Positions 1-54,573 of a stretch of 64,000 nucleotides of DNA are shown here, one piece after another. The position numbers were made by a program, and so were the translations under genes. Position 1 is the stretch's first letter; each line of letters opens with the position of its first letter. Under the pieces are notes generated by a model. The model saw nothing but the letters and a program-made list of their open reading frames with translations. It was not told the DNA's origin and did no database searches. The DNA comes from Aureococcus anophagefferens (lineage: Eukaryota > Sar > Pelagophyceae > Pelagomonadales > Pelagomonadaceae), in contig NW_008705573.1 in assembly GCF_000186865.1 (NCBI RefSeq), positions 426,108-490,107 on the forward strand. Direction: 5' to 3'.

Positions 1-727
1 TGAACATGCCCTTGCGGCAGAGCTGGAAGTTCTCCTCGGCGAACGTCTTGAACTCCATGCCCGCGTAGAGCTCCGTCAGCTCCTCGACGCTCTGCTCGCC
101 GGCGCCGGGCGCGGCGGCGGGCGGCGCCGCCGGCGCGGACTTGGCCGTCATGACGGGCTCCGCCTCCTTCGCGGGCGCGGACCCGAGGCACTCGGGCTTC
201 GTCCACGTCGTCTCCTTCGTCACGGTGTTGTAGTAGTACTCGCGCTTCGACGCCTCGTCGACCTTGCTGAGCCACTTGGCCGGGTCCGTCGCCGCCGCGG
301 CGGCGGCCTCGGGCGTGCTCTCCGCGCCCTTGTAGCCGGGCCTACGCGGTGCGCCGCGTCTCGTTTCTCGAGCGTTCCGGCGAGGACGCGGCGGGACGCG
401 CGGCGGCGTCCACGACGTCTCCTGCGTCGTCTTGTTGTAGTAGTAGATCTTCCCCGAGCTCGGGTCCGTGCGCTCGTCCCAGTCCGAGGCGCCGCCCGGC
501 GACGGGCCCTGCGGTCGGCGGTGACGCGGCCGCGGCGCGCGCGCGCGCGTCCGGGCGCGGGCGCCGCGCGAGCTCCGAGGGCCACTCCCAGCGCGTCTCG
601 CCCGACGCGGCGTTCGCGTAGTACTTGCGGCCTGCGGTCGCGCGTCGGGGGGGGGGCGGCGGCGGCGGGGGGACTCGCCTGAGGAAGGATCATCGTGTTC
701 CATCCATCCGCCCCCGACGTCCGTCAT
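1..727 (-). CDS. Triple WW-domain protein, 5' part (runs off the left edge)
   Basis: The gene reads leftward from an ATG at 727 and continues past base 1. Exon 1 (727-679) joins exon 2 (from 631) to give a WW domain with DDPSSGRKYYANAASGE followed by RWEWP. Exon 3 (508-405) holds a second WW (WDERTDPSSGKIYYYNKTTQ, then ETSWTP). The exon from 341 holds a third (REYYYNTVTKETTWTKPE) followed by a Pro/Ala linker and ELYAGMEFKTFAEENFQLCR. WW domains bind proline-rich peptides; tandem sets occur in splicing and signalling adaptors. Intron 1 (678-632) starts GCGAGT, a GC-AG intron. Intron 3 (404-342) also starts GC and belongs to short family C. The donor of the middle intron (acceptor at 509) is not resolved. 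The function of the part outside the window is unknown. Confidence 0.7.
   Translation of the reverse strand, partial: MTDVGGGWMEHDDPSSGESPRRRRPPPDARPQAASTTRTPRRARRAGSGPRSSRGARARTRARAPRPRHRRPQGPSPGGASDWDERTDPSSGKIYYYNKTTQETSWTPPRVPPRPRRNARETRRGAPRRPGYKGAESTPEAAAAAATDPAKWLSKVDEASKREYYYNTVTKETTWTKPECLGSAPAKEAEPVMTAKSAPAAPPAAAPGAGEQSVEELTELYAGMEFKTFAEENFQLCRKGMF
342..404 (-). mobile_element. Short introner-like intron (family C) in the WW gene
   Basis: GC-AG intron placed by reading frame: it joins TSWTP to PGYKG, the usual Pro-Gly after a WW domain. Internal CCGCGTCC and a CTCGAGAAACGAG segment resemble other family C introns. The flanking duplication is decayed (5 of 8 bases). Confidence 0.5.
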
Positions 728-1010
728 GTTTCGCGACGCCTTTCCGGAACCCGGCGAGGCTCCGCGACCGGCGGCGGCTACGACCACGACGACGCGCGGG
801 TGGGGACGCCCGCGCCGCTCTCCGCGACTCCCAGTTATGGGTTCTGCGGGGCTGCCTTGTGTGGCTGGGAGATCGAGCGGCAGCCTTCTGTGTAGGATGG
901 TGTTGTGTACTGCATGTTGCAGAGCGCTCTACCAGGATCCCAGATCGCTCTCGAATCGTCGAGAGGCGAGATAGCTGCTCTGTTTGAATCGCAGCCAGCC
1001 TCCGAGAAGA

Positions 1011-2366: not shown

Positions 2367-2541
2367 GGGAAGGTGGGTCGTCGTCGCGACGCCTGGGAGG
2401 CCTATGTTTACCCTTGTTGAAGTCGATGACGCCTCTAGTGGCAAAACGAGTTCGCATTAAAGATCGCACACATCACCAGCTCTCCCGTCGCTCGCGCGCC
2501 GCCCGAAAGCTCGCCTCGCAGCAATAGGCATCGTCGCACCG

Positions 2542-3120
2542 ATGGCTGCGCACCTCGCGATGCAGGCCGCGCGGCGCGCTGCGCCCGCGGCGCGCCGCTT
2601 CATCGCCACGGGCGACGCCGCGGCCGCCTCGGGCCTGAGCCTGCAGAGGGCGCGGCCCTGGCTCAATGGCGACGGCCCGGCGGGCAGCGACTCGTCGAAC
2701 CAGGCGAGCGACCACGCCGTGGCCCTCGGCGACCTCTTCGCCGGCAAGCGCGTCGCGGTCTTCGGCGTGCCCGCGCCGTTCACGGGAACCTGCACGGAGC
2801 AGCACGTGCCCGGCTACGCGGCGCTCGCGGGCGACTTCGAGGCCAAGGGCGTCGACGTCGTCTGCTTCAGCGTCGCCTGCCCCTACGCCATGCGCGGCTG
2901 GCAGCAGGCCATGGGCGTCGACGAGACCGCCATGACGTTCCTCGCCGACGACCTCGGCGCGGTCACGGCGGCCTGGGGCGTCGCCAAGGACTACAGCGGC
3001 ACGAGCCTCGGCCCGCGGTCCGAGCGCTTCTCCATGCTCGTCGACGACGGCACGGTCAAAGCGTTCACCATCGTCGACGACGCCGCGGCCGACGCCGCCT
3101 GGCTCCTCTCGAAATGCTAG
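2542..3120 (+). CDS. Peroxiredoxin, Prx5/redoxin type, probably organellar
   Basis: The product is 192 residues. The first ~25 residues are Arg/Ala-rich with no acids (AARRAAPAARRFIATG), fitting a mitochondrial presequence. The peroxidatic site is VPAPFTGTCTEQHVPGY with Cys84, matching the Prx5 P-x-x-F-T-x-x-C pattern. FSVACPYAMRGWQ carries a second Cys where many atypical two-Cys members have none or one, and the protein ends in Cys (LLSKC). The family reduces peroxides using thioredoxin or glutathione-linked donors. It is a single exon of normal family length. It converges on the MLO-like gene, with 28 bp between stop codons. Confidence 0.9.
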   Translation: MAAHLAMQAARRAAPAARRFIATGDAAAASGLSLQRARPWLNGDGPAGSDSSNQASDHAVALGDLFAGKRVAVFGVPAPFTGTCTEQHVPGYAALAGDFEAKGVDVVCFSVACPYAMRGWQQAMGVDETAMTFLADDLGAVTAAWGVAKDYSGTSLGPRSERFSMLVDDGTVKAFTIVDDAAADAAWLLSKC

Positions 3121-3148
3121 GGACGCCGCTTCCCCTAGTCGCGGAGTC

Positions 3149-5193
3149 TTAGCCGCGCACCATCACCCCGGACCCTCGCGGCGAGGGGTCTCCGATGCGG
3201 CTCTCGGAGCCGTGGCGGGCCAGGGGGATCTCGTGGAAGTCGAGCGCGACGACGCGGCGCGGCGACTCGTGGGACGCGAGGGGCGTGTCCGGCGTCGGCG
3301 CCCTTGCCGGCGTCCCGAAGAGGTCCGACGCGTGCGCGCCGATGGCGCTGAACCTACCAAGTGCGTCGGTGGCGGTTTTGCGTCGATTTTTTGTCTCGAA
3401 AATTGTCGCGGTCGCAGGACGCTGCGCTGAACTTTCCTCTGCCCACTAAGTAACTCCGAAACTCGTCAAAATCCAGCTCCGCGTCCGTGGCCATCTCCGT
3501 GAAGAGCCGCTCCGCGAACTTCTTCGAGACGCGCGTCTCCTCGAGGGACGCCAGGAGGACTTCGAAGTTGTCGAAGCTCATCGTCGGCTTCGCGGCGAGG
3601 CCCGTGAGCTGGCGCGAGAGCCCCCGCCGCGCGAGGCCCCGGCGCGCCGGCTTCGCGACCGCGCCGCACGCGTCCTCGAAGAAGTCGGCGAGCGCGGCCT
3701 CGGACCGGTCCGGCCGGCCGCGCCAGAAGGCGAGGAACGCGGACCGGTACTCCGCGACGTCCCGCGCCGCGGCGTTCGCCCGCTCGAGGGCCCGGTCGAC
3801 GAGGTCCGGCTTCGGGTCCGTGATCGCCGAGACGAGGACGGCCCGCGACACGTGGTCGACGAGGCTCGCCCACGCGAGGACGAGCGGCGCGAGGCAGGCA
3901 AACGAGAGCCGCGCGCGCGTCCAGGCCGCGGGCAGCTCGTCCAGCGGGTAGCGCGCGTAGCGCAGGAGGAACAGGGAGAAGAGCAGCGCGCGGCAGCCGA
4001 CGAGCGTCGCCGCGACGGCGTCGCCGCCGTCGCGGTGCGCCGTCGCGTGGTCGTCGTGCGGCGGCGCGGGCCGCGTGACGTCGCGCGCGCGCCTGTGTGG
4101 AAATCAACCACTGGTTTGGGGGGTCCCCACCAAACTTCAGAACTCTCTATCTCGGTCAAATCGAAGTCGATTCGGCCGATTTTTGGACGGATCGATTGCT
4201 CTCGTCGAGTTCTCGAAGCACAGCGAAAGAGTCTGGTCCAAACCGTTCGATTACGCGCACATTGAAGTCGGGTTGAAGATTTGATTTCCACACAGGCGCG
4301 CGCGCGCGGCTCCGCTCGTCGCGGTCGAGGCGCGCGGCGCGCAGCAGGTCGCCGTCGCCCGCGAGGCCCGCGACGCGCTCCAGGCGCGCGAGGCGCCGCC
4401 GGCCGGACGCGTCGACGACCGCCTGGGCCCCGAGGACGGCCCACGCGGCCGCGACGTAGGCGAGGACCTCGTCGCGCGCCGCGAGCGACCCGGCGACGGC
4501 GGGCAGGACCGGCGCCGCGGCGGCGGCCGCGCAGAACGCCACCAGCGTCGCCTTGAAACGGAGCGGCGCCTCGAGCAGCTCGATGACGTACTCGTAGGTC
4601 GCGTCGGCGAAGTACGCGGCGAAGTCGACGGACAGCGGCAGCTTCTCGACGCTCAGGAACCGCCGCCGGAGGCCGATGAAGCGCGCGACGTTTCGCCAGT
4701 CCTCCAGCGGCAGGCCCCGTTGCGTCGCCTCGTGGAACGGCCCCGCGCAGATCGCGTCGAGGTCCAGCCCCTCCATCTCGTGGACGCGCCGCTCGATGGC
4801 GTCGGCGCCCGCGAGCAACCCGACGCAGACGCCGAAGGACGTGAGCGCCATGAAGAAGAGGAGCGTGTGCGCGAATTCGAAGCTGAGCTTCGCCTCGTGC
4901 GGAACGTCGACGAGCTGCTCGGCCATGCTCAGCGCGAAGCCGAGGAAGCCCATGAGCGTGAGCTCGCCCTTGACCTTCTCCACGATGACCCGGCGCGTCT
5001 CGTCGGCGGCGTGGTGGAGTTTATGTTCGAAGAGCTCGAAGGCCGTCGTGAACACGACGAGGCCGCCGAGCCAGAGGCAGATGGGGCGGCCGTCGACGGC
5101 GCCCGGCGGGCCGAGCTCGAAGAGCGACGCGTGGTGGTGGCGGTGCTCCGCGACGGGCGGCGGCCGCAGGCCCACCAGTCTTAGAAGCCCCAT
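3149..5193 (-). CDS. MLO-like seven-span membrane protein with a C-terminal EF-hand-like tail
   Basis: Exons are 5193-4292, 4092-3433 and 3353-3149; frames close exactly and give 588 residues. The N-terminal part contains FELFEHKLHHAADETR followed by KVKGELTLMGFLGFALS, close to the first cytoplasmic loop of plant MLO proteins (E..lHH, then K.K.ELM.LGF). Several hydrophobic spans follow. Near the C-terminus is MATDAELDFDEFRSYL, an EF-hand-like segment, then a Ser/Pro tail. MLO proteins are calmodulin-linked membrane proteins, some with calcium-channel activity; the role in algae is not established. Both introns are introner elements (family A at 4093-4295, family C at 3354-3432). The start at 5193 is the first ATG of the conserved frame. 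Its promoter is shared with the divergent hydrolase at 5448. Confidence 0.7.
3354..3432 (-). mobile_element. Short introner-like intron (family C) with a perfect target duplication
   Basis: On the sense strand the intron is GTTCAGCG followed by CAGCGTCCTGCGACCG, ending ACTTGGTAG, then GTTCAGCG again as the start of the next exon. The two 8-bp copies are at 3425-3432 and 3346-3353. Removal restores GRGKFSAIGAH. The 71-bp body (3354-3424) matches the intron at 49500 at both ends. Confidence 0.85.
4093..4295 (-). mobile_element. Introner element, family A, copy 1
   Basis: A 203-bp insert with perfect terminal inverted repeats CTGTGTGGAAATCAA and TTGATTTCCACACAG, flanked by GCGCGCGC on both sides (4085-4092 and 4296-4303). 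It lies inside the MLO-like gene in sense orientation. Frame closes only if the donor is the second GT of the terminal repeat (intron 4291-4093, 199 nt), leaving 12 extra coding bases. Confidence 0.92.
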
Positions 5194-29850: not shown

Positions 29851-31477
29851 ATGCTTCCTACGAGGATGCTTCCTACGATGCTCCTCTCGATGCTCGTGCT
29901 GCCCCTGGCCTCCGCCGCCAGCGCGCACCGCGCCCTCAGCGGCGACGAGGAGGCGCGCACGGACCGGGTCGAGTACCTGACGGGCTTGAACCCCAAGTCG
30001 CCGGAGGAGCCCGAGGATGTGGTCACGGAGAGCTACGGCATGGCCCTGGTCAACCTCGGTATCACGGTCGCGATCATCGGCGGCGCGCTCATCTTCCTCA
30101 GCTTCCTGTGGAATCTCATCCACTGCTGCCGGCGCTGCTGCTGCAAGTGCAGCTGCTGCGCGTGCGTCGACACGTGCACCAAGGGCAAGGGCGGCCGCTA
30201 CCGCATCCTGCTGCTCTTTACGCTCCTCGGCCTCGCGGCCTCCATGACTTCCTTCAGCCACGGCGAGAAGACGCTCCAGGCCGGCGTCAAGAACGTCGCG
30301 GACGGTTTGGAAAGTCTGAGCGACCTCCTGAACCACCTCGACGACGTCATCGGCGACATGGCGGGCGCGACGGCGGACATGACGTCCGCCGTCCACGACG
30401 TCACGTGCTCCGGCGGTGAGCTCGACGAGTTCATGGACGAGATCCGCGCGGTCAACGACACGATCTACGACGTCTCGGGCATCTTCGGGGACATGCACGA
30501 GCCCGTGGACAACGCGGAGGACGCGGTCCGCGAGCACGGGCGGCGCTGGGTCGCCATCGTCATCCCCGCGGCCGTCGCGGCCCCCTTCTCGCTCTACCTC
30601 GTCCTCGCGCTCCTCGGCGTCGGCGCCAGCCGGTTCAGCAAGGCCGCGGGCGGCTGCTGCCTCAACCTCGGCTCGGCCTGGGCCGGCGGGCCGGGCCTGG
30701 GCGTCGCGCTACTCATCTTCGCCGTGCTCTTCGTCGTGTCCATCGCCATCGCGGACGTGTGCTGGCTCGGGCCCGCGGCCGTGCTCACGCAGGACAACGA
30801 GGACAACAAGTACATCGCGTACTACCTCAACTGCGAGGGCGAGAACCCGCTCGACGTCGACGTCTCCGCCATGTCCGACGCCGTCGACTCGCTCGAACAA
30901 TACACGAAGGATCTCGAGGCGCTCGGCGTCTGCACGGGGCTCGACAGCGCGGTCGCGACGATCGGCGAGTCGCTCGACACGCTCGAGGACAGCGTCGACG
31001 AGATCACGGACGAGGTGCTGAGCTGCAAGTACGCCGCGGCGTCCGGTCGAAGGGGCAACGTTCTCGCGCACGAAGCCTTCTTCCCACAGGTACATCCAGC
31101 CCATCATGGGCGACGTCGTCTACGACGGCCTCTGCGACAAGACCGTCGAGGGTTCGCACCGGCGTCCCCGTTCGAGAGCTTTCGACCGGGAAATCAAATC
31201 GCGCGCGGTAGGTCTCTACCAGGTCTGGGTCGTCGTCCTCGCGGGCGGCTGCTGCGTCTACGCGGCGCTGCTGCTCATGCCCTTCGCGCTCGCGGCCTTC
31301 AACCAGCAGGGCGCCGCGCGCGTCGATCCCGAAGCTCCGGCGCCGCAGGAGGCCGTCGCCGTCGCGAAGGTCGTCGGCGCGGGCGCCTCCGCGGGCTCGT
31401 ACGTCGCCGAGGGCAAGGTCGTCGCGAAGCAGCCCGGGGACTACGCCGCCGGGGCGCCGGCGCCGGCCCTCCCATAG
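29851..31477 (+). CDS. Tweety/prominin-like multi-span membrane protein
   Basis: Exons 29851-31028, 31090-31151 and 31212-31477 give 501 residues; phases close. A signal peptide (MLLSMLVLPLASAASA) is followed by five or so spans. After span 1 comes a Cys cluster CCRRCCCKCSCCACVDTC, likely palmitoylated. Long extracellular helices follow each pair of spans (ADGLESLSDLLNHLDDVIGD; EDSVDEITDEVLSCKYIQPI), the layout of tweety-homologue and prominin proteins. Animal tweety proteins sit in plasma membrane; function in algae is unknown. Both introns are short family C-type. The assignment to tweety rather than prominin is tentative. Confidence 0.65.
31029..31089 (+). mobile_element. Short family C-type intron
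   Basis: GTACGCCG then CGGCGTCCGGTCG, ending CCCACAG; right flank GTACATCC (5 of 8). Splicing restores SCKYIQPIMG. Confidence 0.65.
31152..31211 (+). mobile_element. Short family C-type intron
   Basis: GTTCGCAC then CGGCGTCCCC, followed by TTCGAGAGCTTTCGACCGGG, which matches the TTCGAGAGCATTTGACCGGG stretch of the 49500 intron, and ends GCGGTAG. Splicing gives VEGLYQVWVV. Confidence 0.75.
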
Positions 31478-35096: not shown

Positions 35097-35099
35097 TTT

Positions 35100-41000: not shown

Positions 41001-44000
41001 CGTCGCCGTCGGCGCGCGCGTCGCGCACTCGTTCTCGTGCCACGCGATCGCGCCGGCGCCGTAGGCCGCGGACAGCGCGTCCGCGTCGCCGTCGCCGTCG
41101 ACGTCGGCTGCGGCAACGGAGTGGGCGCCGTCCGCCAACGTCGTGATGATGCGGGTCGTGAAGGACTGCGAGCCGTCGTTTTCGTACCAGGAGACCGTGT
41201 CGTCGCCGTAGGACGACGACAGCGCGTCGATGTCGCCGTCGCCGTCGACGTCGAACGCGAAGACAGTGTTGGCTTGGTCCGCCGCGTCCGCAATAACCAG
41301 CTCTGCGAAGGACTGGGACCCGTCGTTCTCGTACCACGCCACCGTGTCGTCGTCGGCGGACGCCGAGAGCGCGTCCGCGTCGCCGTCGCCGTCCACGTCG
41401 ATCGCGAAGACGGAGTAGGCGGCGTCCGCCGCGTTCGTGACGACGCGCGCCGTAAAGCTCTGCGACCCGTCGTTCTCGTACCACGCGATCGTGTTGTCTA
41501 GCTGGGACGCCGAGAGCACGTCGACGTCGCCGTCGCCGTCCACGTCGATCGCGACGACGCTGCGGACGTCATCCGCCGAACTCGTGAGGTCGGCCTTTGC
41601 GAAGGCCTGGGCCCCGTCGTTTTCGTACCACGCGACCGTGTCGTCGACGAAACTCGCCGAGAGGGCGTCCACGTCGCCGTCGCCGTCCACGTCGATGGCA
41701 AACACTGATTGGGCGGCGTCCGCGAGCGTCGTAATGACGCGTTCCGCGAAGGACTGGGACCCGTCGTTCTCGTACCACGCGACCGTGTCGTCCCCGTTGG
41801 ACGCCGAGAGCGCGTCCGCGTCGCCGTCGCCGTCCACGTCGATCGCGAAGACGTTTCGGGCCCCTTCTGCCAGCGTGGTGAGGATGCGCTCGGTGAAGGA
41901 CTGGGAGCCGTCGTTCTCGAACCACGCGACGGTGTCGTCGCTGTAGGACGCCGACAGGACATCGTCGACGCCGTCGCCGTCGACGTCGAACGCGTAAACG
42001 CCAAAGGCGCCCGTCGCCGAGTTGCTGATGGTGTGCTGTAAAAATGAGACGCTCGTGCAGAAAGTCGTCGGCCGCGGCGTTGGGGCAGCGCTCGTCGGCG
42101 CGAGGCTCGTCGTCGGCGTGGTACTCGCAGACGGCACCGCCGTAGGCGCGGCCGTCTCGGCAGACGGCACCGCCGTAGGCGCGGCCGTCTCGCAGTCGTC
42201 CTCGTACCACGCGACCGTGTCGTCGTCGGCGGACGCCGAGAGCGCGTCGACATCGCCGTCGCCGTCGACGTCGATGGCGTAGACGGAGCGGGGGCGGTCC
42301 GGTGTGCCAAAGACGCGCTCCGTGAAGGACTGCGACCCGTCGTTCTCGTACCACGCGACCGTGTCGTCGCTGGGAGACGCCGAGAGCGGGTCGACATCGC
42401 CGTCGCCATCGAGGTCGATCGCGAAGACGGCATAGGCCCCGCCGGCGGATGCCGAGATGATGCGCTTCGTGAAGGACTGGGCGCCGTCGTTCTCGTACCA
42501 GGCGACCGTGTTGTCGGAGCCGGAGGCTGAAAGCACGTCGACGTCGCCGTCCCCGTCGACGTCGATCGCGAAGACGGAGGTGGCAAAGTCCGCCGTGGTA
42601 GAGATGATGCGCTCCGTGAAGGACTGCGCATCGCCGTTCTCGTACCACGCGACCGTGTCGTCGTAGCGGGACGCGGCCAGCAGGTCGACGTCGCCGTCGC
42701 CGTCGATGTCGACGGGGAAGACGGACATGGCGCCGTCGGCGAGCGTCGTGATGACGCGCTCGGTGAACGACTGGGTCCCGTCGTTCTCGTACCACGCGAC
42801 CGTGTCGTCGGTTTTGGACGCCGACAGCGCGTCCGCGTCGCCGTCGCCGTCGACGTCGATCGCGTAGACGGAATCGGCGGCGTCTGCCGTGTACGTGATG
42901 ACGCGCTCGGTAAAGGGCTCCGACGCATCGTTCTCGTACCACGCGACCGTGTCGTCCATGTAGGACGCCGACAGCGCGTCGACGTCGCCGTCGCCGTCGA
43001 CGTCGATGGCGAAGACGGACAGGACGTTGTCCGCGAGCGTCGTGATGATGCGCTCCGTGAAGGACTGGGACCCGTCGTTTTCGTACCAGGAGACCGTGTT
43101 GTCGCTGTAGGACGCCGACAGCACGTCGACGTCGTCGTCGCCGTCGACGTCGATGGCGAAGACGGAGTAGGCACCGTCCGCCGAGTCGGTGACGACGCGC
43201 CCGGCGAAGGAGACGCTGGCGCAGCTGACCATCGGCCGCGGCGTCGGAGAGGGAGAGGGCGCGCGGGTCGTCGTCGGCGCCGTCGTGGGAGCGAGCGTGC
43301 TCGTGGGTGCGAACGTGCCGCAGTCGTTCTCGTACCACGCGACCGAAGCGCCGTCGCCGTACACCGACAGCGCGTCGACGTCGCCGTCGGCGTCGACGTC
43401 GATGGCGACGAGGGAACCGGCGCCGACCGACGAGATCAGGCGCTCCGTGAACGACTGGGCGCCGTCGTTCTCGTACCACGTCGCCACGGAACTGGTGGAA
43501 GAGAGCGCGTCCACGTCGCCGTCGCCGTCGACGTCGATCGCGAAGACGGAGACGGCGTAGACCGCGTGCGTCGCGATGACGCGCTCCGTGAAGGCATTGG
43601 ACACGCGGATGTAGAAACTTGCGCCCCAATTCTGGCCATCGCCCGAGTCAGCGCACGCGTCGTAGTTCCCGCAGCCGTGCGCGTCGTCGAAGTAGATGCC
43701 TCCGCAGCTCGCTTCCGCGCACCGCGTCTGGCACGCGACCAAGCTGTCGCCCGCGCCGCCCTGTCCCACGATGAAGTCGCTCCAGCCGCCGCAGGTCGCG
43801 TCGCTCGACGGGCAGATGCGCTCAAAGGACGCGTAACCGTCGCAATGGCCGTCGATCTGCGCGAACGCGCCGCCGCCGTTCTCGTGCCACGCGACCGTGT
43901 TGCCCAAGTAAGCCGCCGACAGGACGTCGACGTCGCCGTCGCCGTCGGCGTCGGCGGCGGAGACGAACCAGGCGCCGTTCGCCGAGTTTGTGAGGACGTG

Positions 44001-46829
44001 CTCCGTGAAGGACTGCGAGCCGCCGTTCTCGTACCACGCGACCGTGTCGTCGTAGTAGGATGCCGACAGGACGTCCACGTCGCCGTCGCCGTCGACGTCG
44101 ATTGCGAAGACGGACATGGCGCCGTCCGCCATATTGGTGACCATGCGTTCGGTGAAGGACTGGGAGCCGTCGTTCTCGTACCACGCGACCGTGTCGTCCG
44201 TGGCGGACGCCGACAGGACGTCGACGTCGCCGTCGCCGTCGACGTCGATCGCGAAGACGGACATGGCGGCGCCGGCGACCGTCGTAAGGATCCGCTCGGA
44301 GAAGGACTCGGACCCGTCGTTCTCGTACCACGCGACCGTGTCGTCAAGTTTGGACGCCGACAGCGCGTCGACGTCGCCGTCGCCGTCGACGTCGATGGCG
44401 AAGACGGAGGCGGCGTCGTCCGCGAGCCACGAGATGATGTGCTCGGTGAAGGACTGGGAGCCGTCGTTCTCGTACCAGACGACCGTGTCGGCGGCGAAGG
44501 CCGCCAGCGCGTCCACGTCGCCGTCGGCGTCGACGTCGATCGCGAAGACCGAGTTGCCGCCGCCGGCGGTCGTCGCGACGATGTGCTCCGCGAAGGCGAC
44601 GGACGCGCAGGTGATCGTCGGCCGAGGCGTCGGAGCGGCCGCGGGCGCCGCGGTCGGCGCGTGCGACGCGCAGTCGTTCTCGTACCACGCGACCGTGTCG
44701 TTCTTGATGGACGCGGACAGCGCGTCGACGTCGCCGTCGCCGTCGACGTCGAGCGCGAAGACGAACCGGGCGCCGGCCGCGAGCGTCGTGACGACGTGCT
44801 CGGCGCCGCCGTCGGCGCCGTCGTTCTCGTACCACGCGACCGTGTCGTCGTAGTAGGACGCGGCCAGCACGTCGACGTCGCCGTCGCCGTCGATGTCGAC
44901 GGGGAAGACGGACATGGCGCCGTCGGCGAGCGTCGTGATGATGCGCTCGGTGAACGACTGGGAGCCGTCGTTCTCGTACCACGCGATCGTGTCGTCGTCG
45001 GTCGACGCGGCAAGCGCGTCGACGTCGCCGTCGCCGTCGAGGTCGACGTGGACGACGTCCGTGGCGCCGGTCGCGGCCGCCGTGATGACGTGGTGCGAGA
45101 AGGACTCGGACCCGTCGTTCTCGAACCAGACGATGGCGTTGGCTTCGTACGCCGCGACGATTAGGTCCAGGTCGCCGTCGCCGTCGACGTCCGACGCGTC
45201 GACGTCGATGGCGTAGGCGAGGGTCGTCGCGACGATGCGCTCCGTGAAGGACTGGGACCCGTCGTTCGCGTGCCAGGCCACCGTGTCGTCGAGCATCGAC
45301 GCCGCGACCACGTCGACGTCGCCGTCGCCGTCCACGTCGACGCCGGCGGCGGCGACGGCGTTCTCCGCGAGCGTCGTGATGACGCGCTTCGTGAAAGACT
45401 GGGACCCGTCGTTCTCGTACCAGAGCACCGCGTCGTCGTTGCCGTTCACCGTCAGCACGTCGAGGTCGCCGTCGCCGTCGACGTCGACGGCCGCGACGGC
45501 CGCCGCGCTGGGGGAGTCGTCGCCGACGTCGCGCGCCGCGAAGGACTGCGAGCCGTCGTTCTCGTACCACGCGACGGCGTCGTCCGTGAACGAGGCCAGC
45601 GCGTCCGCGTCGCCGTCGCCGTCGACGTCGACCGCGCGGACGGCGCGGGGGCCCGGCGAGGCCGTCGACACGACGCGCTCGGCGAAGGCGACGGCCGCGC
45701 AGGACGCCGTCGGCCGCGGCGTCGGCGGGGCCGTGACGGCGCCGTTCTCGTACCAGGCCAGGAAGCCGCCCGCGCCGGACGACACGCCGCCGACGAGCGC
45801 GTCGACGTCGCCGTCGCCGTCGAGGTCGCCGGGCGCGGCGACGGCCGGCGACTGCCCGCTCTCGAGCGCGTCGCCGAGGGCCCGCGCGGTGAAGGCGACG
45901 TCGCCGTACGAGTCCAGGTCGTGCTCGAGCCAGTAGTTGTGGTAGACGCTGAACTCTGCGGGGAGGAGGTCGACGTCGCCGTCGCCGTCGAGGTCCGCCG
46001 CGGCGAGGGACCGCGCCGTGCCCGCGCCCGCGGTCGCGGTGTGTTTCGCGAAGCCCGCGTAGGGCAGCCCGTTCTCGTACCAGAGGAACGCGAAGTCGCT
46101 CGCCGCGACGGCCAGCACGTCGGGCGCGCCGTCGGCGTCGACGTCCGCGGCGCCGACGTGGATCGCGCCGTCGGCGTCGCCGTCGACGACCACTTCGGCG
46201 TCGAAGTTCCCGGCGCCGTCGTTCGCGAAGTAGCGCACCGTGTCGTCCGAGTAAGAGGCCGCGACCAGGTCGAGGTCGCCGTCGCCGTCGACGTCGGCGG
46301 CGTGGACGGAGTAGGCGCCGTAGGCGGCGGCCGCGACGACGTAAGTCGTCCCCTCGGCCTCGTACCAGGCGACCGCGTCGTCGTTGAACGCGACGGCGAC
46401 GAACTCGACGGCGCCGTCGCCGTCGACGTCCGCGGCCGCGACCGTGTAGGGGCCCGCGGCGTCGGCGATGTGCGCGTAGGCGAACTGCTCGGACCCGTCG
46501 TTCGCGTACCAGCCGAGGTCGCCGGCGCCGACGGAGCCCGCGACGACGTCGACGTCGCCGTCGCCGTCGACGTCCGCGGCGAAGACCGAGAAGACGAGGC
46601 CGCGGGCCTCGTCGCCGACGATGTCCAGCCGGACCGAGCCCGCCGCCGGATCGTACCAGTAGATCTCGCCCCGCACGTAGCTCGCGGCGAGCGCGTCGTT
46701 GCCGCCGTCGCCGTCGACGTCGACGACGACGGCGGCGTAGTGGTAGTTTGTGCCGAATGCCTCGAGCTCGTGCGCGACGAAGTCGAGGCCCGCGGCGACG
46801 GCGCAGCACGCGAGGAGCAGGCGGAGCAT
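35100..46829 (-). CDS. Giant FG-GAP propeller / REJ-like membrane receptor (3,909 residues, single exon)
   Basis: The true ATG is 46829, followed by a signal peptide (MLRLLLACCAVAAG). Residues ~25-1930 are 35 FG-GAP/VCBS blades of ~47 residues, each with a DVDGDGDVD-type calcium loop and a D-T-V-A-W-Y-E-N-D-G strand. They fall into five blocks of seven, separated by Thr/Pro linkers (APTPRP) that lie between two Cys, so five seven-bladed propellers. Residues ~1970-2800 resemble a REJ/PKD-like region. A Ser/Pro stalk and a Cys-rich juxtamembrane segment follow, then about seven spans from ~3065 (ILLALLGLAAAVGLVAAGG) to ~3727, with a charged loop between. The layout recalls polycystin-1/REJ receptors. 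The ligand is unknown; carbohydrate or cell adhesion is inference. Confidence 0.85.
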   Translation of the reverse strand: MLRLLLACCAVAAGLDFVAHELEAFGTNYHYAAVVVDVDGDGGNDALAASYVRGEIYWYDPAAGSVRLDIVGDEARGLVFSVFAADVDGDGDVDVVAGSVGAGDLGWYANDGSEQFAYAHIADAAGPYTVAAADVDGDGAVEFVAVAFNDDAVAWYEAEGTTYVVAAAAYGAYSVHAADVDGDGDLDLVAASYSDDTVRYFANDGAGNFDAEVVVDGDADGAIHVGAADVDADGAPDVLAVAASDFAFLWYENGLPYAGFAKHTATAGAGTARSLAAADLDGDGDVDLLPAEFSVYHNYWLEHDLDSYGDVAFTARALGDALESGQSPAVAAPGDLDGDGDVDALVGGVSSGAGGFLAWYENGAVTAPPTPRPTASCAAVAFAERVVSTASPGPRAVRAVDVDGDGDADALASFTDDAVAWYENDGSQSFAARDVGDDSPSAAAVAAVDVDGDGDLDVLTVNGNDDAVLWYENDGSQSFTKRVITTLAENAVAAAGVDVDGDGDVDVVAASMLDDTVAWHANDGSQSFTERIVATTLAYAIDVDASDVDGDGDLDLIVAAYEANAIVWFENDGSESFSHHVITAAATGATDVVHVDLDGDGDVDALAASTDDDTIAWYENDGSQSFTERIITTLADGAMSVFPVDIDGDGDVDVLAASYYDDTVAWYENDGADGGAEHVVTTLAAGARFVFALDVDGDGDVDALSASIKNDTVAWYENDCASHAPTAAPAAAPTPRPTITCASVAFAEHIVATTAGGGNSVFAIDVDADGDVDALAAFAADTVVWYENDGSQSFTEHIISWLADDAASVFAIDVDGDGDVDALSASKLDDTVAWYENDGSESFSERILTTVAGAAMSVFAIDVDGDGDVDVLSASATDDTVAWYENDGSQSFTERMVTNMADGAMSVFAIDVDGDGDVDVLSASYYDDTVAWYENGGSQSFTEHVLTNSANGAWFVSAADADGDGDVDVLSAAYLGNTVAWHENGGGAFAQIDGHCDGYASFERICPSSDATCGGWSDFIVGQGGAGDSLVACQTRCAEASCGGIYFDDAHGCGNYDACADSGDGQNWGASFYIRVSNAFTERVIATHAVYAVSVFAIDVDGDGDVDALSSTSSVATWYENDGAQSFTERLISSVGAGSLVAIDVDADGDVDALSVYGDGASVAWYENDCGTFAPTSTLAPTTAPTTTRAPSPSPTPRPMVSCASVSFAGRVVTDSADGAYSVFAIDVDGDDDVDVLSASYSDNTVSWYENDGSQSFTERIITTLADNVLSVFAIDVDGDGDVDALSASYMDDTVAWYENDASEPFTERVITYTADAADSVYAIDVDGDGDADALSASKTDDTVAWYENDGTQSFTERVITTLADGAMSVFPVDIDGDGDVDLLAASRYDDTVAWYENGDAQSFTERIISTTADFATSVFAIDVDGDGDVDVLSASGSDNTVAWYENDGAQSFTKRIISASAGGAYAVFAIDLDGDGDVDPLSASPSDDTVAWYENDGSQSFTERVFGTPDRPRSVYAIDVDGDGDVDALSASADDDTVAWYEDDCETAAPTAVPSAETAAPTAVPSASTTPTTSLAPTSAAPTPRPTTFCTSVSFLQHTISNSATGAFGVYAFDVDGDGVDDVLSASYSDDTVAWFENDGSQSFTERILTTLAEGARNVFAIDVDGDGDADALSASNGDDTVAWYENDGSQSFAERVITTLADAAQSVFAIDVDGDGDVDALSASFVDDTVAWYENDGAQAFAKADLTSSADDVRSVVAIDVDGDGDVDVLSASQLDNTIAWYENDGSQSFTARVVTNAADAAYSVFAIDVDGDGDADALSASADDDTVAWYENDGSQSFAELVIADAADQANTVFAFDVDGDGDIDALSSSYGDDTVSWYENDGSQSFTTRIITTLADGAHSVAAADVDGDGDADALSAAYGAGAIAWHENECATRAPTATPTAAASPAPTTAAPVAADAPSAAPTPTPCDAVAAGSYAGPPPRLAAAAFTSTGAALTVAFDAPTDLGGFAAGEAFGCAALLDMADGDVAQCDWTDASTLNVLVSSALAVVPGVTVALKPGVLKAPCDDAVFSRCDCVPCASNSSAVLAPPATPLVPSVVLQGPTSAAVCEGGFEVSGDQSTGSGGRAFVVRDWNATCVGAGGIAAAVENAAADPATFAVASATLSSLGCEAVTLTLTLANFLGFSATSAAHAVAVRHDTPPVVTVVGGLRQATARPQALSVTASALATSCDGRAARDRAVVYDWALAGGLASTSRDPRYFKLPPFALSVGTHALTLVVRDAQHAASNTSTALSVVVARSAVVAVVDGGDRVVPASSPLRLSASESYDEDVPGATGANAGLAFTWTCDELVLEDATGEALDVSLDAGLYTFRVNATAADGTHGAATALIDVVAADPPRVAASAVPPRVASTLRLSLSGDVDPSSLGRAVDAALGLNSTWAVVAGALADGAALEAVAATRPAVRGPARPRTHALVLPKGALVAGGAYALELSATYGGSAVAGAARVAFVAAAPPTSGVVVAAPESGVALETLFALETRSWVTADAPLTYAFKAGGATLRAPTLEPQLEGVVLKEGAVVVAVVAYDSLGGSSGAETVVLCAPPAPETLAALAADRLDEAAALGNSEAVAQTVVAAAGAADPSLLSTLLEAMDAVVDALDDDAALLEQSASAVAAAAAADGGVLLGEAAAATALNATAKVAARSRAVGFAETTAESCVVAMSALLDNDDARRRRRLNIEAPAEPSATRVAVAAVLDDVAVAATAGAVAGEDPVVVSSDRIDVTSAALPLNATPGVPNAVSSPRGGRAVALPDAIGGPGDAVVVVLADLYDDDVAREDDDDGGDVAREDDDDGAPSPAPSSKPSPRPSPKPSSRSPTRSPSSASTTLVPSSAPTSLAPSSASPTLAPSSAPTRSPTVAPSLAPRPGATTHFGVFGGGNESLRVRLDLARASTLAEGRETANLTCPCGFVGDVNHTCADGAVVSQHCDGAAGAFELRCPGEKHRCFRRRKDGDWGKACETSTSDTGVVSCACAARVNRPGDYRVETDAVASSAAYVGSFVSVPDLGRSAAILLALLGLAAAVGLVAAGGRVLDRRDAAVPPPSLRSRMLRKQRDDFGASTDQLAYFGSRESLDVIVEASFFAKATTLLKKNHALLNIYYVHSDGLSRPLRALKLGVEILLFLWGVALSTAMTYPDPGCDGESTRRGCLQYVNLNPGGVFKTRRMCKWDRCSGSCVYRAPNATATATTEHYFTLALTMALLLPLIAVLDVIFDTYVAAPSPFAHAREKAGEKPEAEKSHRTLDALDEPSFSFVPEGLARPDVDAAVARHCETPKATARKRAKKWTTYFRRRLAAFRRNVGESLGETRSLRHKSAALEETVRKLAPAVAEAVVARDEELQRAIDGAFEESARVSLKRLRSRLRNEWDFVEDRAVFRATVRAILQRHILRALVWDEELSAIKGDTPEKTRALKGAKLFELERLSKLGPAERNIYRHSITSFDEDAAVDVPTKARYVGAIAAEVVLLLYIGFYLVAYGSDMGRGRTIVWLYTVSVSLALYYAVISPLEVLFFGYALPSLLAEHFEKFEDPTSLSRYPFETKLPSVATYFLALWHEELHETRIGRHCLGTLHEEAPDTSPEALKRILADATWRPTLQVRATIFLVSGFVTLPVSWQEVLFEEVFTFTPFCSQILTAVVGVDLTGGGSSGRRAVDVSTIVNLVGVIVLLFISITLWQGGSELARRLSVRYRRVPPPDHREKWHERRGDSTRRAATRKRNSALEDTMRSTGRRLSTIMKHRGVEPADAAEKAKHQRAADDFAAIEMGRVAEKAAAKPKRASALVDWSHTGGSGGDAGAAPPPPTFNPLSPRSGDPTRVGWDAFAAEPGTPMTANPMSPRSPGTPRTPGGSKRRNPECPY
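41030..46760 (-). repeat. Coding tandem repeat: 35 units of about 141 bp
   Basis: The FG-GAP blades are also near-repeats at DNA level; units such as GTCGACGTCGACGGCGACGG recur throughout. Units 1-7 (most 5') are the most diverged; units 12-34 are very alike. Such a tract should be prone to unequal exchange and to assembly collapse. Confidence 0.9.
43575..43870 (-). other. PAN/apple-like Cys-rich insert inside the third propeller
   Basis: Between blades 19 and 20 the protein contains about 95 residues unlike FG-GAP: CDGYASFERICPSSDATCGG, VACQTRCAEASCGGIYF, CGNYDACADSGDGQNW. Eight or more Cys and the C-x3-C...C pattern resemble a PAN/apple domain. It sits as a loop between blades 5 and 6. Confidence 0.6.
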
Positions 46830-46989: not shown

Positions 46990-48233
46990 ATGGCCCACAG
47001 TTCGACCTCCCCCGTGGCTGGCCGCTCCGTGCCGATGCGCTTCGCGGACCTGCCGGACGAGCTGAAGGACGCCGTCGCGCGCTTCCTGGACCTGGCCGCC
47101 GTCGGCGCCGCGCGCCAGGCGCGGCAGCTGCTCGGCGACGCCCCGTTCCGGCGCATCTTCGAGGCCAAATACGGGCGGAAATCTCTCTTCCGGCTCAAGC
47201 AGCCGAGGCCCTTCACGTCCTACGAGAACCTGCTCTACGAGCGCGCGGGCGCGCGGCGCCGGGACCTGGCCGTCGTGCCGGGCGTCTTCCGCTACGAGGG
47301 GCACAGCGTCGACCGCAAGGGCCGCGTGAGGTCCAGGGCAGGACAAGGGTGATTCAACGTCGCTTCAACGTGAGTGTTCCGCGCGCGCGCGTTCTGGAAA
47401 AAGCATCCACACTTCGAGACCGTTCCGAGAGATGATCGCTCGTCCAAAAATCAGCCGAAACGAGTGGAAAATGGCCGAGAGAGGAGCCTTTGAAGTTGGG
47501 AATTTCGCACTCTTGTCCTGCCCAGGTGAGCTCGCGCGGCACGCTGGTCTTCGACGAGACCCACTTCTTCACGGGCTGCGTGCGCCACGCGCGCCAGGGC
47601 GACGGCGCGAGCCTCGAGGGCACGGGCATGGGCAACCTCTGCGCGGACATCTCGCCGAGCGCGGGCAAGCGGCTCTGGGCCTTGGCCTGGAAGGAGCGCG
47701 TCGAGCGAAGCGTGGGCGCGTACACCTACGTCGGCGCGCTGAGGCACCTGCCGGACGGTCGTTTGAGCTGGGTGGGGAAGTTCTCCTGGATCGGGAGGGA
47801 GCGCGGCGCGTTCAGCTACGTCCTCGAGCGCGCGCGCGACGCGGCGCCCGGCGACGGCGCCCCGCTCTCGGGGGACGCGCCTGGCGCGGATGGCGATGGC
47901 GTCCACGGCGGGCTAGGTTGTGTGTTCGTTTACGCGACCGCGCAGGCGGCGCTCTTCCGGGTCCGCGCCTCCGCGAGGATCTGGTCCCAGAGCGTGAGGG
48001 CCCAGAGCACCTCGGCGCGGTCGAGTACGCCGTCGACGTCCAAGTCGGCCTCGCCGGCGACGTGCTGGAACGTCTCGACCGTGAGTTCGATCGGCGCCGT
48101 CTTCGCCGGGCGCCGCGCCTCCTCGACGGCGAGTAGCGCCGCCCAGAGCTCGTTCCGACTCCAGGCGCCGCTCGAGTCGACGTCGTGCGTGCGGAAGATC
48201 TCGTCGACGTCGTCCTCCCGCGCGGACCAGTAG
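46990..48233 (+). CDS. F-box-like protein (3' end uncertain)
   Basis: Exon 1 (46990-47325) encodes MRFADLPDELKDAVARFLDL and AAVGAARQARQLLGDAPFRR, an F-box-like start (LP.EL...I..fLdl.....). Exon 2 begins at 47526 with VSSRGTLVFDETHFFTG and contains LWALAWKERVERSVGAYTYV and GKFSWIGRERGAFSYVLERA. These look like beta-strand repeats of a substrate domain. F-box proteins recruit targets to SCF ubiquitin ligases. The frame stays open to 48233 and overlaps the convergent EF-hand gene by 300 bp. Coding character fades after about 47900, so the real end is probably near there through an unseen intron or a frameshift. The intron is a family B introner. Confidence 0.6.
47334..47525 (-). mobile_element. 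Introner element, family B, copy 3 (inserted in antisense orientation)
   Basis: 192 bp, ends CAGGGCAGGACAAGGGTG and GCACTCTTGTCCTGCCCAG. Flanks GTGAGGTC (47326-47333) and GTGAGCTC (47526-47533) match at 7 of 8. Its inside is the reverse complement of copies 1 and 2 relative to the host gene, yet it still forms a GT-AG intron (47326-47525) in phase 0. Confidence 0.92.
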
Positions 48234-48848: not shown

Positions 48849-50291
48849 ATGGGCAGCCCAGAACGCGCGATGCTCCTCGCGCTGCTCTCGTGCCAGGCCG
48901 CTGCAAATGTCGCTGCAAATGATGCGACCTGGCACGAGAGCAGCGCGAATGATGCGACCTGGCGCGAGAGCAGCGCGACATCCGTTACCAACGCGACGCT
49001 GCGCTATCTCTCCGGCGGCGTCGTGCCCATCCTGAACGGCTCGACGCCGGGCATGGTGCCCAAAGTCGGCAACAACACGCTCGGCGTCGAGGACGGTACC
49101 ATCGTCGTCGTCGACGGCATGCTCCACATGTTCCCGACGGAGATGCACTGCGGCTGGACGAAGACGCGCGTCGTCCACTTCACCGCGCCGCTCGACGACA
49201 ACCTGACGTGGACGTTCCGCGGCGGCGTCACGCCCTACGGCCACGGCGTCTGCGACGTCGACGACCACCACGCGAAGCTCTGGAGCGGGTCGCCCCAGTG
49301 GGAGGCGCCGCGGCCCGGCGAGCCGGAGGGGCGGTGGTACATGTCGGTCGTGGGGTACAACGAGGACTGCGAGGACAAGGCGGGCGGCACGGACGGTCGC
49401 ATCCTCATGTTCCGCAGCGCGACCGCCGGCCGGGGCGGCATCGACGGCCCCTACGAGGAGCTCGACGACATCTTGAAAGCGGACGGGCTCGTGCCGATGG
49501 CGGGCGCCAGCGTCCTGCGGCCGTGACGATTTTCGAGAGCATTTGACCGGGGAAACGACGAACAATCGTCACCGACGTGCTTGGTAGGCGGGCGCCCAGG
49601 CCTGGGAGGACTGGGGCTACCCGCGAGGGCTGCCCTGCGCGTTCAAGACGGGGGGCAACAACTGCTCCTTCCCGGAGCGGATCGTCGAGGACGCCATCTG
49701 CTCGTTCTCGCCGTCGTACCATGCGCAGCGTCCGCCGACGGGCATGCTCGCCCGGACACGCGCATCGATAGGTACCGCAGCGCGCTCCCGGACGATCCGC
49801 CGGGCCGGCTCTGGGCGTTCTACGGGAGCGGCTGGGACACGGGCCAGTGCTACTCGGACGCCGGCGTGCTCGGCCCCTGGACGCGCGCGCCGACGGGCAA
49901 CCCGCGGCCCATCGGCAACTGGTCCGACGGCGGACCCGAGAACCCGCTGGTCTTCAAATCGCGGTCGGGCGTCTACCTCCTGATCTGGGCGGCGAATCTG
50001 CTCCAGGTCGAGCACGGCCTGGCCTTCGCGTGGTCCAAGGACGGCGTCAACTGGGAGGACAACACGGGCGGCGGCATCCGCACGGGCAAGGCCGGCTACA
50101 TGATCCCCGTGTCGCCGCCGGGGCACGTGGCCTTTCGCACGCCGCTCGCGCTCGTCGAGCACGAGGAGCGCGACAACTTCTTCACGTTATTCTTCACGGC
50201 GTTCGAGAACGACCACGCCAATCCGGCCGCGCCGATCGGCGGCTACGAGAACGCGTACGCGAGCGAAGTCGAGCTCGTGCTCACGTTCTAA
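48849..50291 (+). CDS. Secreted GH43-like five-bladed propeller protein
   Basis: Exons 48849-49499, 49588-49715 and 49772-50291 give 432 residues; all phases close. A signal peptide (MLLALLSCQAAA) precedes a short duplicated N-x-T/S-rich segment (ANDATWHESSANDATWRESS). The body shows propeller-style strands: GVEDGTIVVVDGMLHMFPTE, GRWYMSVVGYNEDCEDKAGG, GRLWAFYGSGWDTGQCYSDA, PENPLVFKSRSGVYLLIWAA, AFAWSKDGVNWEDNTGGG. This resembles glycoside hydrolase families 43/62/117-like proteins; catalytic acids cannot be assigned with confidence. It presumably acts on cell-wall or extracellular glycans. The last codons lie in a 34-bp tandem repeat. Confidence 0.65.
48878..48947. repeat. Perfect 20-bp inverted repeat at the signal peptide of the GH43-like gene
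   Basis: CGCGCTGCTCTCGTGCCAGG at 48878-48897 and its exact reverse complement CCTGGCACGAGAGCAGCGCG at 48928-48947, with a 30-base loop. Confidence 0.9.
48918..48977 (+). repeat. 30-bp direct tandem duplication, two copies
   Basis: Two adjacent copies of AATGATGCGACCTGGC(A/G) followed by CGAGAGCAGCGCG (48918-48947, 48948-48977), one mismatch. It adds ten in-frame residues. Confidence 0.9.
49500..49587 (+). mobile_element. Short introner-like intron (family C) with a perfect target duplication
   Basis: GC-AG intron. GCGGGCGC (49500-49507) then CAGCGTCCTGCGGCCG, ending GTGCTTGGTAG; GCGGGCGC again at 49588-49595. Splicing restores LVPMAGAQAWEDWG. Its two ends match the 3354-3432 intron nearly base for base. 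Confidence 0.88.
49716..49771 (+). mobile_element. Short family C-type intron
   Basis: GTACCATGCG then CAGCGTCCGCCGACG, ending ATCGATAG; right flank GTACCGCA. Splicing restores FSPSYRSALPDDP. The motif is two bases further in than usual, suggesting a small indel. Confidence 0.65.
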
Positions 50292-52876: not shown

Positions 52877-52946
52877 CAATTCACATAGCCCCGCGCCGCC
52901 GGCGACGACGAAGGCGGCCAGCCTCGACGGCGCGTAAGAGTCCGCG

Positions 52947-54573
52947 TCACCTTAGCCCCGCGCCGCCGGCGAAGACGGGGTCCCAGCGGCGGACGTCGCG
53001 GTGCTTGCCGACGAGCGCGCCCCGGCCCGCGTCCGCGCGCGCGTCGAAGACGCTCCAGATCATGAGGACCTCGTCGGAGCCCACGGACGCGACGCGCGAG
53101 AAGTCCGGCGACTGCGCGAGCGCGAGCACGCGCGCCGTGTGCTTGCGCATCTCGATGAGCTTGTCCAGGGACCGTTTCGCCGCGTCCCAGCGCCAGACGC
53201 AGAGCTGGTTCTGCGAGAAGCCGTGCGACGACAGGAGCTGGCCCGTGTCCTTGGACCACGCGAGGCCCGTGACCTGCGTGCCTGTCGCTTTCGACTCGAG
53301 CACGGCGCCCGACGACGCGTTCCAGAGCTTCACGGTCTGGTCCAGCGTGCCGCCGCCCGTCGCGAGGAGCGACCGCTTGTCCGGGGACCAGGCGATGGCC
53401 TTGACGGCCGCGGCGTGGGCCTTGGAGGCGACGCGGGGCTCCGGCCGCGAGCAGCGCGCGTCCCAGAGGCACAGCAGGTTCTCGTTGCCGCCGGAGGCGA
53501 GCGTCCGCCCGTCGGGGCTCCACGCCAACCCGCAGACCTCCTGCGTGTGCTTGGACCGCAGCGCCGTCTTCGGGAAGCCGGGGCACCGCAGGTCCAGGTC
53601 CCAGATGCAGCTGTCGCGCGACCCCGTCGTCAGCGTCCGCGTCTCCGGGTTCCACGCGAGGACGCCGCAGCGGCCGTCGTGGACCCAGCCCAGATCGCGC
53701 ACGGGCGCGCCCGTCTCGAAGTCGAAGACCATGAGCGCCGCGTCGCCGCCGCCGTGCGCCGCGACGGCGACGTGGTCGCCGCGCGGCGCCCAGGAAACGG
53801 CCGTGACGTCGTCGCCCATGTCGCAGAGCCGCCGCACGCTGCGGTCCGTCGAAAAGGCGTAGTTCGTGCGCACCGCGTCCATCGTGTAGACCTAAGGGGT
53901 GCGTCGATCTTTCCCAGCCAAAATCTCTCGAACGTCGTCGCGGGACGCCGGCGGAGACGTCGGAGCCCAGGCCGATGGCGATGTGGTCCTTCGCGCTCCA
54001 CGACAGCACGTTGCAGTAGAAGTCGTCGTTGATGTCCGGCGCGTCCAGGATCGCGTGGGGCACGGCGCTGAAGTTCGACGCGAGGGGCTGCGTCCGAGGG
54101 GTCGCGGGGCCCGCGCCGAACGCCGGCTCCGTCGCGCGCGAGCCCGCGGGCGCCGCGAAGACGCGCGCCTTCTGCGGGCTGAGGAGCGCCGACAGCGCCG
54201 ACGCCCGCTTCTCGCGGTCGTCGCGCTCGACGGAGAAGTGCGCGGCGCCGCTGCGGAGCGCCTCGAAGCGCGCGGCGCCGTCGTCGCGCCGCGGCTCGGG
54301 CGCGAGCGTCGCCCGCGCGCGCGACTCGCGGCACGCGCGCTCGACGTCGACGCCGATGGACGGCACGAAGCGATCGTCGGGCGTGACGACGTGCGTGCGC
54401 TTCGCGTCGGTGGAGTGCGCGCCGTCGACGGACCGCGGCCGCTTTTTCGACACCGTGCGCAGCGCGTCGTTCGCGCCGCCGTCGTCGCCGCGCGCGCGTG
54501 CGCGCTGCGGGCTCAGCAACACGTCCGTTTCCACCCAATTCGTCTCCATCCTGCAGCCAACGGCGTCGTCCAT
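52947..54573 (-). CDS. Cdc20/Cdh1-family WD40 activator of the anaphase-promoting complex
   Basis: Exons 54573-53959 and 53891-52947 give 519 residues. The N-terminal half has a C-box-like DDRFVPSIG and a SALLSPQKARVF segment. The family signature AILDAPDINDDFYCNVLSWS leads into seven WD40 repeats, e.g. VTAVSWAPRGDHVAVAAHGG, GLAWSPDGRTLASGGNENLL, AIAWSPDKRSLLATGGGTLD. The C-terminus is Leu-Arg instead of the usual Ile-Arg tail that docks on the APC/C. It selects cell-cycle proteins for ubiquitination. Cdc20 and Cdh1 cannot be separated by eye. The intron interrupts the first blade and splicing restores GLGSDVYTMDA. Confidence 0.92.
53892..53958 (-). mobile_element. Short family C-type intron in the Cdc20/Cdh1 gene
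   Basis: Sense strand: GTCTCCGC then CGGCGTCCCGCGACGACG, TTCGAGAGATTTTGGCTGGG, ending CCCCTTAG; right flank GTCTACAC (6 of 8). Phase 0 at both ends. A donor 12 bases later is also in frame but gives a poorer match to the WD40 family. Confidence 0.75.

Follow-up and report, generated by a model that had tools for sequence, protein, structure and literature searches.

Short introns of Aureococcus anophagefferens as probable insertions of an 80-nt DNA element with a donor drawn from the duplicated target

The origin of introns is an old open question, of which introners are the best live example. Among the closest described systems, the introners of the alga Aureococcus anophagefferens reported by Huff, Zilberman and Roy (2016) always show direct repeats, constant-length terminal inverted repeats and canonical splice motifs (PMC7789003), with a characteristic length near 210 bp (PMC9481584). 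Gozashti et al. 2022 (PMC9860276) described in Aureococcus sp. a family 4 with both splice sites inside the element, which leaves 12 extra nt in the mRNA. In Symbiodinium microadriaticum, the element carries the acceptor and the target-site duplication (TSD) gives the donor (PMC9860276), and the introners of Amoebophrya, likewise repeated introns, carry direct as well as inverted repeats and have splice sites of which many are non-canonical (PMC7789003). The present analysis deals with a stretch of 64 kb of A. anophagefferens DNA (the window: contig NW_008705573.1, positions 426,108 to 490,107, ~71% G+C, out of a 49-Mb genome in 86 contigs), and with a genome-wide family of non-coding elements of ~80 nt, CRGCGTCC...CTTGGTAG, copies of which are found in short introns of this stretch.

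The ~80-nt family is probably the same as Aureococcus sp. family 4 or a sister of it, as compared by description and not by sequence: both come from the same genus and share the 8-bp TSD, a 77-nt intron and the four bases before an internal GT. However, the reading frames analyzed below put the donor at the start of the TSD, with nothing added to the mRNA, and contradict, in this case, the rule of 12 added nt drawn by Gozashti et al. 2022 (PMC9860276). The combination of an acceptor in the element and a donor in the TSD resembles the introners of S. microadriaticum, which differ in having a 4-bp TSD and clear terminal inverted repeats. The likeness to Amoebophrya lies in the repeated introns, the direct and inverted repeats and the many non-canonical sites, but the direct repeats of Amoebophrya are of 3-5 nt and its splice sites very diverse, whereas the ~80-nt family starts with GC, GT or perhaps rarely GA and has an AG acceptor. 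With the introners of Huff and colleagues it shares the same or a close species, a likely DNA-transposon origin and the TSD, but its sole inverted repeat is buried and most of its donors are GC; two families of ~200 nt, also present in the window, are the ones that fit the length near 210 bp (PMC9481584). A previous sequence-only reading of the window had considered these introns far shorter than usual introners, which holds against the ~200-nt families but not against the published family medians, which go from 30 to 654 nt (PMC9860276).

These introns very probably (with a probability of about 0.9) represent copies of a DNA element that is miniature (~80 nt), non-autonomous and of the cut-and-paste type, and they would take their splice donor from the TSD. 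Insertion would duplicate 8 bp of the target (sometimes 9), and the terminal TAG of the element would become the acceptor. When the duplicated target starts with GC or GT (hereafter GY), or perhaps rarely with GA, that dinucleotide would become the donor, and excision of the TSD together with the element would restore the original coding sequence exactly. On the other hand, antisense copies, or those in targets not starting with GY, would stay unspliced and be lost by selection. The transposase moving the element would presumably be supplied in trans, and splicing would presumably take place in vivo. The sequence-only reading had proposed that the introns may be miniature introners, a proposal that finds support in a repeated element with TSDs, in its location on the sense strand of predicted coding sequence and in its in-frame excision. 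The frame-compatible GY start and the buried inverted repeat are likewise shown by the sequence.

A repeated element of 80 nt

Both exact ends of the element occur at 34 places in the genome, and a single pattern for the 5′ end, which required G or C at -9, at 233 places, with 0 places for the backwards control in either case; the genome-wide enrichment of the motif at +9 that the sequence-only reading had anticipated is therefore present. A DNA search with the copy at 49500 gave 331 candidates, and the 40 of these that were scored all have 84-100% identity. Full-length copies measure 80 nt and read CAGCGTCCTGCGGCCGTGACGATTTTCGAGAG...AAAATCGT(C/T)ACCGACG...CTTGGTAG. When 49 copies chosen by their ends are aligned end to end, the mean column identity is 87%, whereas copies picked solely by their core (n=29, by eye) keep the exact CRGCGTCC start in 25 of 29 cases and the TAG end in 29 of 29. 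Two rough estimates of family size were obtained: 4 of the 11 core matches in the part of the genome that the listed 5′-end matches span also fit the 5′-end pattern (by eye), which corresponds to ~640 well-kept copies, and 3 full-length copies in the 64-kb window plus 6 extra ones in ~200 kb of flanks extrapolate to ~1,500-2,300 copies, the flanks of known copies being a non-random sample.

The two ends are the best preserved parts of the element. In a set of 33 near-full copies whose selection did not use the 5′ end (under a filter that mildly favours intact 5′ ends), the terminal TAG deviates in 0 of 99 cells, and mismatches amount to 2.3% at positions 1-8, 10.6% at positions 9-24 and 6.4% at positions 52-77. 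The 5′ octamer may be conserved because the transposase needs it or because it serves as a signal for splicing. Its being the best kept part after TAG also agrees with a set of unrelated ordinary introns that have a common splicing-enhancer motif near the donor, an explanation with next to no likelihood, already refuted by copies that align end to end and carry TSDs.

The flanks of 140 near-full copies show a TSD of 8/8 in 77, 7/8 in 27 and 6/8 in 18, as compared to 0.5% of 8/8 when flanks are paired at random. A 9-bp TSD fits better in a few copies, either fully (9/9 in L064 and L109) or with one mismatch (8/9 in L016, L066 and L156). The profile of mismatches along the TSD (0 in 124 pairs at position 1, 9-17 at positions 3-8) was not used, as the pairs had been chosen for an upstream G start. 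If the introns had spread as RNA that was reverse-spliced into transcripts and then reverse-transcribed, the near-exclusive location in sense-coding sequence described below would be accounted for, but this route is not expected to duplicate the target at both ends, and the 8-bp duplications refute it in its simple form. Moreover, the first 8 nt of the intron follow the target rather than the family, all of which leaves this route with a very slight probability.

The sequence-only reading found no obvious inverted repeats, but one does exist. Positions 16-26 are 81% paired with their mirror positions (76 copies of 80 nt), a value that falls to 25% after shuffling and to 10-44% in other registers. 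This sub-terminal repeat, GTGACGATTTT, is buried 15 nt in from each end. RNAalifold on the family gives three pairs and no covariation, and the buried repeat was therefore treated as a DNA feature. The simplest reading would be that the element had terminal repeats and that its outermost ends then diverged, one turning into a splice acceptor. As with miniature inverted-repeat transposable elements (MITEs), the family is short, non-coding, present in high copy number and flanked by a TSD of fixed length (8 bp, in few copies 9 bp). An 8-bp TSD is also a trait of hAT elements, whose ends follow the consensus YARNG; the 5′ end of the family, CAGCG, fits this consensus, and its 3′ end read inward, CTACC, does not. 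The hAT transposase profile PF05699 had 0 matches in the genome, and likewise 0 in the control genomes.

Some copies depart from the common structure. L142 and L130 have an internal tandem repetition of a TTCGAGAG...GGGAAAA block and reach 121 and 103 nt, in this order. L093 (C7:802920-803380) and L094 (C7:809100-809560), which lie 6 kb apart, are the same insertion with identical printed flanks, either a duplication after intron gain or an assembly artefact.

Coding location and the origin of the splice donor

Coding flanks on the element's own strand were scored in 103 of 105 copies by a codon model whose training set was 20 long, unannotated open frames of the window, the 105 excluding 13 partial profile matches; window positions scored as coding were 606 of 652, and the other 46 as non-coding. 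The exceptions are L002, scored antisense, and L122 (C46:154140-154610), the sole copy with clearly non-coding flanks, which has the non-GY target GGGCAGAT/AGGCAGCT. Once the TSD and the element are excised, the best frames of the two flanks agree in 90 of the 105 copies.

For the donor, 94 of the 105 copies were used, after exclusion of 11 with a weak coding score on either side. The frame-compatible start on the TSD side in these 94 copies with confident frames is GC in 54, GT in 38 and GA in 2, whereas GG and CG, expected from composition 8.4 and 16.8 times, are absent. The preference is specific for the position, as GY is found at -5 in just 8, and at -11 in 10, of the 85 copies in frame at -8. 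Without any filter for coding, among the 100 matches listed, out of 233, GY stands at -8 in 97 and at -9 in 3. Intron positions +3 to +8 are near background. In 9 of the 94 copies (L016, L033, L064, L066, L073, L087, L104, L107 and L109) the frame-compatible start lies at -9 or -10, the upstream in-frame position having been taken, and it is GY in 9 of 9; among them, L016, L064, L066 and L109 have a well-kept TSD.

Upstream flanks that have gained a base or two allow a start at the TSD to be separated, by frame, from the arrangement described for family 4, in which the element would hold both splice sites. Its donor would be the internal GT of CAGC|GTCC, and 12 nt (8 of the TSD and 4 of the element) would add four residues to the protein. 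All 38 copies picked by core have this GT at positions 5-6, the 4 + 8 bp arithmetic and the 77-nt example of Gozashti et al. fit the family, and both rules keep the same frame in 85 of the 94 copies. However, this internal donor (element position 5) would break the frame in the remaining 9, precisely the shifted copies, and L113 has GC in its place. It does not need a GY at the start of the TSD, yet GY is nearly universal there. An internal donor is, in consequence, improbable to a high degree.

Homology is not decisive between the two splice rules, because a rule with no added residues always restores the ancestral protein; for this reason, and given that homologues of the window gene at 48849-50291 vary in length, the reading frame was used instead. 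In any case, matches to Pfam families extend over the junction in six of the predicted spliced products (M17, CobW, UbiA, M20, ion channel and Na/H exchanger), with the CobW junction in the P-loop, GA|GKT, and that of UbiA at YRPI|PSG. A protein 99% identical to the M17 aminopeptidase, P0001, crosses the junction with no added residues, which argues against the internal donor, but it could come from a strain lacking the insertion. A second 99%-identical aminopeptidase, P0018, starts at a Met inside the TSD, as would be expected from unspliced DNA or RNA, and these protein matches suggest the existence of interrupted and uninterrupted forms of one gene.

A related question is whether the GY start could come from the sites that the transposase prefers rather than from selection for splicing. 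As such a preference would produce, nearly all copies have GY at the first target position (L019 alone of the 94 could be read with GY at target position 4 or 7 instead), and the non-coding copies able to show neutral targets are almost absent. On the other hand, a symmetric transposition complex is expected to give a palindromic preference, and L122, whose flanks are clearly non-coding, lies in a target that does not start with GY. The same point can be examined in two longer introner families (~200 nt), located in the window at 4093-4295, 21290-21540, 31700-31960 and 47290-47560. Their ends (by eye) are CTGTGTGGAAATCAA / TTGATTTCCACACAG and CRGGGC... / ...TGCCCAG, with an 8-bp TSD starting GY, and their genome-wide end matches number 615 and 343. 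Among the 100 matches listed, out of 615, for the symmetric family, there are 21 complete pairs, counted irrespective of coding flanks; 18 of these 21 duplications are exact over 8 bp, and GY is present at one end only in 16 and at both in 5, the chance of GY at one or both ends being ~34%. Since a symmetric element is blind to the strand of the gene, this one-sided requirement points to splicing. In the second family, all of the 100 matches listed, out of 343, have G at position 1, followed by C in 49 and T in 51, whereas position 8 is C in 47, with no mirrored preference. A transposase preference is thus unlikely, and we infer that selection rather than transposase choice imposes the GY.

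Several observations weigh against insertions of a miniature DNA element with TSD-derived donors. The frames used to train the codon model have a G+C content at third codon positions of 0.52-0.97, and some are probably spurious. Non-coding copies are rarer than random insertion followed by neutral survival predicts, a scarcity that selection on splicing alone does not explain. Among the shifted copies, L087, L073 and L109 also have a GY in frame 3 nt further down, and the TSD is poorly kept in L087, L107 and L033, whereas one of the two GA copies, L019 (GAACGAGT), could use a GT at target position 7. The homologues of the gene at 48849-50291 are undecisive at its first junction, where P0121 has 2 more residues and P0123 ~6 more, and where P0122 and P0125 have the length of the product of the TSD rule (all by eye). 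The outer 15 positions of the two ends pair at 38% and are not inverted repeats, and the element, lacking inverted repeats at its very ends, is not a textbook MITE. The MULE transposase PF10551 had 0 matches in the genome, a search whose control was positive in 3 of 14 genomes. The long autonomous relative that the sequence-only reading proposed to look for did not appear among the copies examined, with transposase searches that covered MULE and hAT only: in all 29 newly examined of 43 core-matching places, a terminal TAG lies no more than 60 nt from the core, and 40 examined of 100 listed (of the 233) 5′-end matches have bodies of 55-121 nt, a few with uncertain ends such as L129.

The excess of GC-AG introns

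The sequence-only reading had missed both the source of the donor, the TSD, and the predominance of GC among the donors. Per available site, the enrichment over background is 8.7-fold for GT and 4.1-fold for GC, and GC sites are about three times commoner than GT in coding DNA. Most of the new introns are therefore GC-AG, because GC dinucleotides are so much more frequent, even though GT is used about twice as readily. Alignment of expressed sequence tags and transcripts by Iwata and Gotoh (2011) gave 39.6% of GC-AG introns in A. anophagefferens, a species with a normal U1 5′ end and the largest information-deficit fraction among 61 species, in which the origin of these introns was termed an "enigma" (PMC3033335). 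A donor that is whatever GY the target offers would produce such a GC-AG-rich pattern, so that TSD-derived donors may offer an origin for the excess. This explanation was not found in the accessible parts of the introner literature searched, and Huff et al. (2016) may give it. The same could apply to Micromonas pusilla, another species with introners (3,566 of them, PMC9860276), which has 22.2% of GC-AG introns, against 2.7% in Micromonas RCC299 (PMC3033335).

The ~80-nt family allows the donor rule to be read from sequence alone, and it raises the tentative, rather doubtful idea that the conserved CRGCGTCC, located 8-10 nt inside the intron, directs the spliceosome to cut at nearly any GC or GT upstream. 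If that were true, the donor would need little consensus beyond its two letters, and introners would have remodelled the splicing of this alga, with GC donors about half as acceptable as GT per available site and a record share of GC-AG introns.

Copies in the window and related proteins

A profile of the family has five matches with E <0.001 in the window, which holds five firm and two likely copies, and not the about ten introns counted in the sequence-only reading:

3354..3432, reverse strand: GT-AG intron of 79 nt, element 3354-3424, profile 56.5 bits
20326..20413, forward strand: GC-AG intron of 88 nt in an ion-channel gene, element 20334-20413, profile 61.3 bits
31029..31089, forward strand: likely old copy, GT-AG, 61 nt, GTACGCCG-CGGCGTCC...CACAG
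31152..31211, forward strand: degenerate copy, GT-AG, 60 nt, in the same gene as 31029-31089, GTTCGCAC-CGGCGTCCCCGTTCGAGAG...GGTAG
49500..49587, forward strand: best intact copy, GC-AG, 88 nt, element 49508-49587, TSD GCGGGCGC 8/8, profile 87 bits
49716..49771, forward strand: likely old copy, GT-AG, 56 nt, in the same gene as 49500-49587, GTACCATGCG-CAGCGTCC...GATAG
53892..53958, reverse strand: degenerate copy, GT-AG, 67 nt, in a WD40 gene, profile 27.2 bits (53909-53949)

The perfect 8-bp duplications and matching bodies noticed earlier at 3354-3432 and 49500-49587 were confirmed. The TSD of the first, GTTCAGCG (8/8), has its upstream copy at 3425-3432 and its downstream copy at 3346-3353, excision gives an open frame, and a 97%-identical copy with the same TSD lies at C1:2377471; the gene is EF-hand-like by reading of its translation, with no tool match. 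The intron at 20326-20413 has a TSD GCGCGCCG/GCTCGCCT of 6/8 and a concordant frame, and its spliced junction is spanned by a Pfam Ion_trans stretch. At 31029-31089 there is a frame change, with the motif at +9, a TSD of 5/8 and no profile match, for which reason it counts as likely and not firm. Its neighbour at 31152-31211 has a profile core at 31169-31197 (17.3 bits, E 0.0003) and ends similar to those of copy L112, and excising the two together gives an open frame. The gene at 48849-50291 is likewise open once both of its introns (49500-49587 and 49716-49771) are removed. The second of them combines a frame change, the motif at +11 and a TSD of 5/8; P0126, with 98% identity across 40% of the query, continues through its last residues and differs further upstream (by eye). 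At 53892-53958, the TSD GTCTCCGC/GTCTACAC is of 6/8, the frame fits and excision leaves an open frame in a gene that is Cdc20-like by reading of its translation. Overall, excision gave open frames in 5 of the 5 window gene regions tested. A further candidate near 342, implied by the sequence-only reading, keeps a frame-compatible GC start, but its TSD is just 3/8 and it is unproven. The suggestion that many small introns are old copies is hinted at by the motif at +9 to +11 in 6 of 21 window frame-change sites, a motif-blind and noisy set whose members need not all be introns.

As for the octamer itself, the window contains 48 instances of CRGCGTCC, where shuffles give 28.4 +/- 5.1; the seven firm or likely introns hold 7 of these, and the other 41 are unclassified. 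The octamer alone was rejected as a diagnostic, with just 7 of its 48 places in described introns, and the earlier concern that the motif might be common elsewhere holds for the bare octamer (41 of 48) but not for the longer motif with its flanks. When the exact octamer is combined with an intron that starts G(C/T/A), ends AG and has a TSD of 6/8 or better, the window shows 4 places, as compared to an average of 0.47 and a largest value of 3 for 30 permuted motifs; with frame-concordant coding flanks added, there are still 4, as compared to an average of 0.03. Looser settings separate the family from the permuted motifs less well: a TSD of at least 5/8 gives 7 places against a mean of 2.3 (one permuted motif gave 9), and when one mismatch in the octamer is allowed, at a TSD of 6/8 or better, there are 19 places, the permuted motifs having a mean of 7.5 (largest 17). 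The strong evidence for the family is the genome-wide end matches, and not the octamer counts of the window. An open region at 40997-46500, with more than 20 copies of a 147-bp repeat that are 60-83% alike, accounts for many of the remaining CGGCGTCC matches in the window.

Gene models may go wrong at such introns. The A. anophagefferens protein P0021 shares long identical stretches with the aminopeptidase gene that holds copy L003 (C54:15975-19048), and its model is without ~50 residues around the introner and differs elsewhere too; the gap perhaps comes from a predictor that avoids the GC donor. Four relatives of the same gene, P0023, P0024, P0025 and P0067, start with MISTQ, which fits read-through of the long-introner end TTG ATT TCC ACA CAG, on the assumption of a TTG start, at a different position of the L003-type gene. 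These MISTQ proteins probably reflect a separate introner insertion in a related alga.

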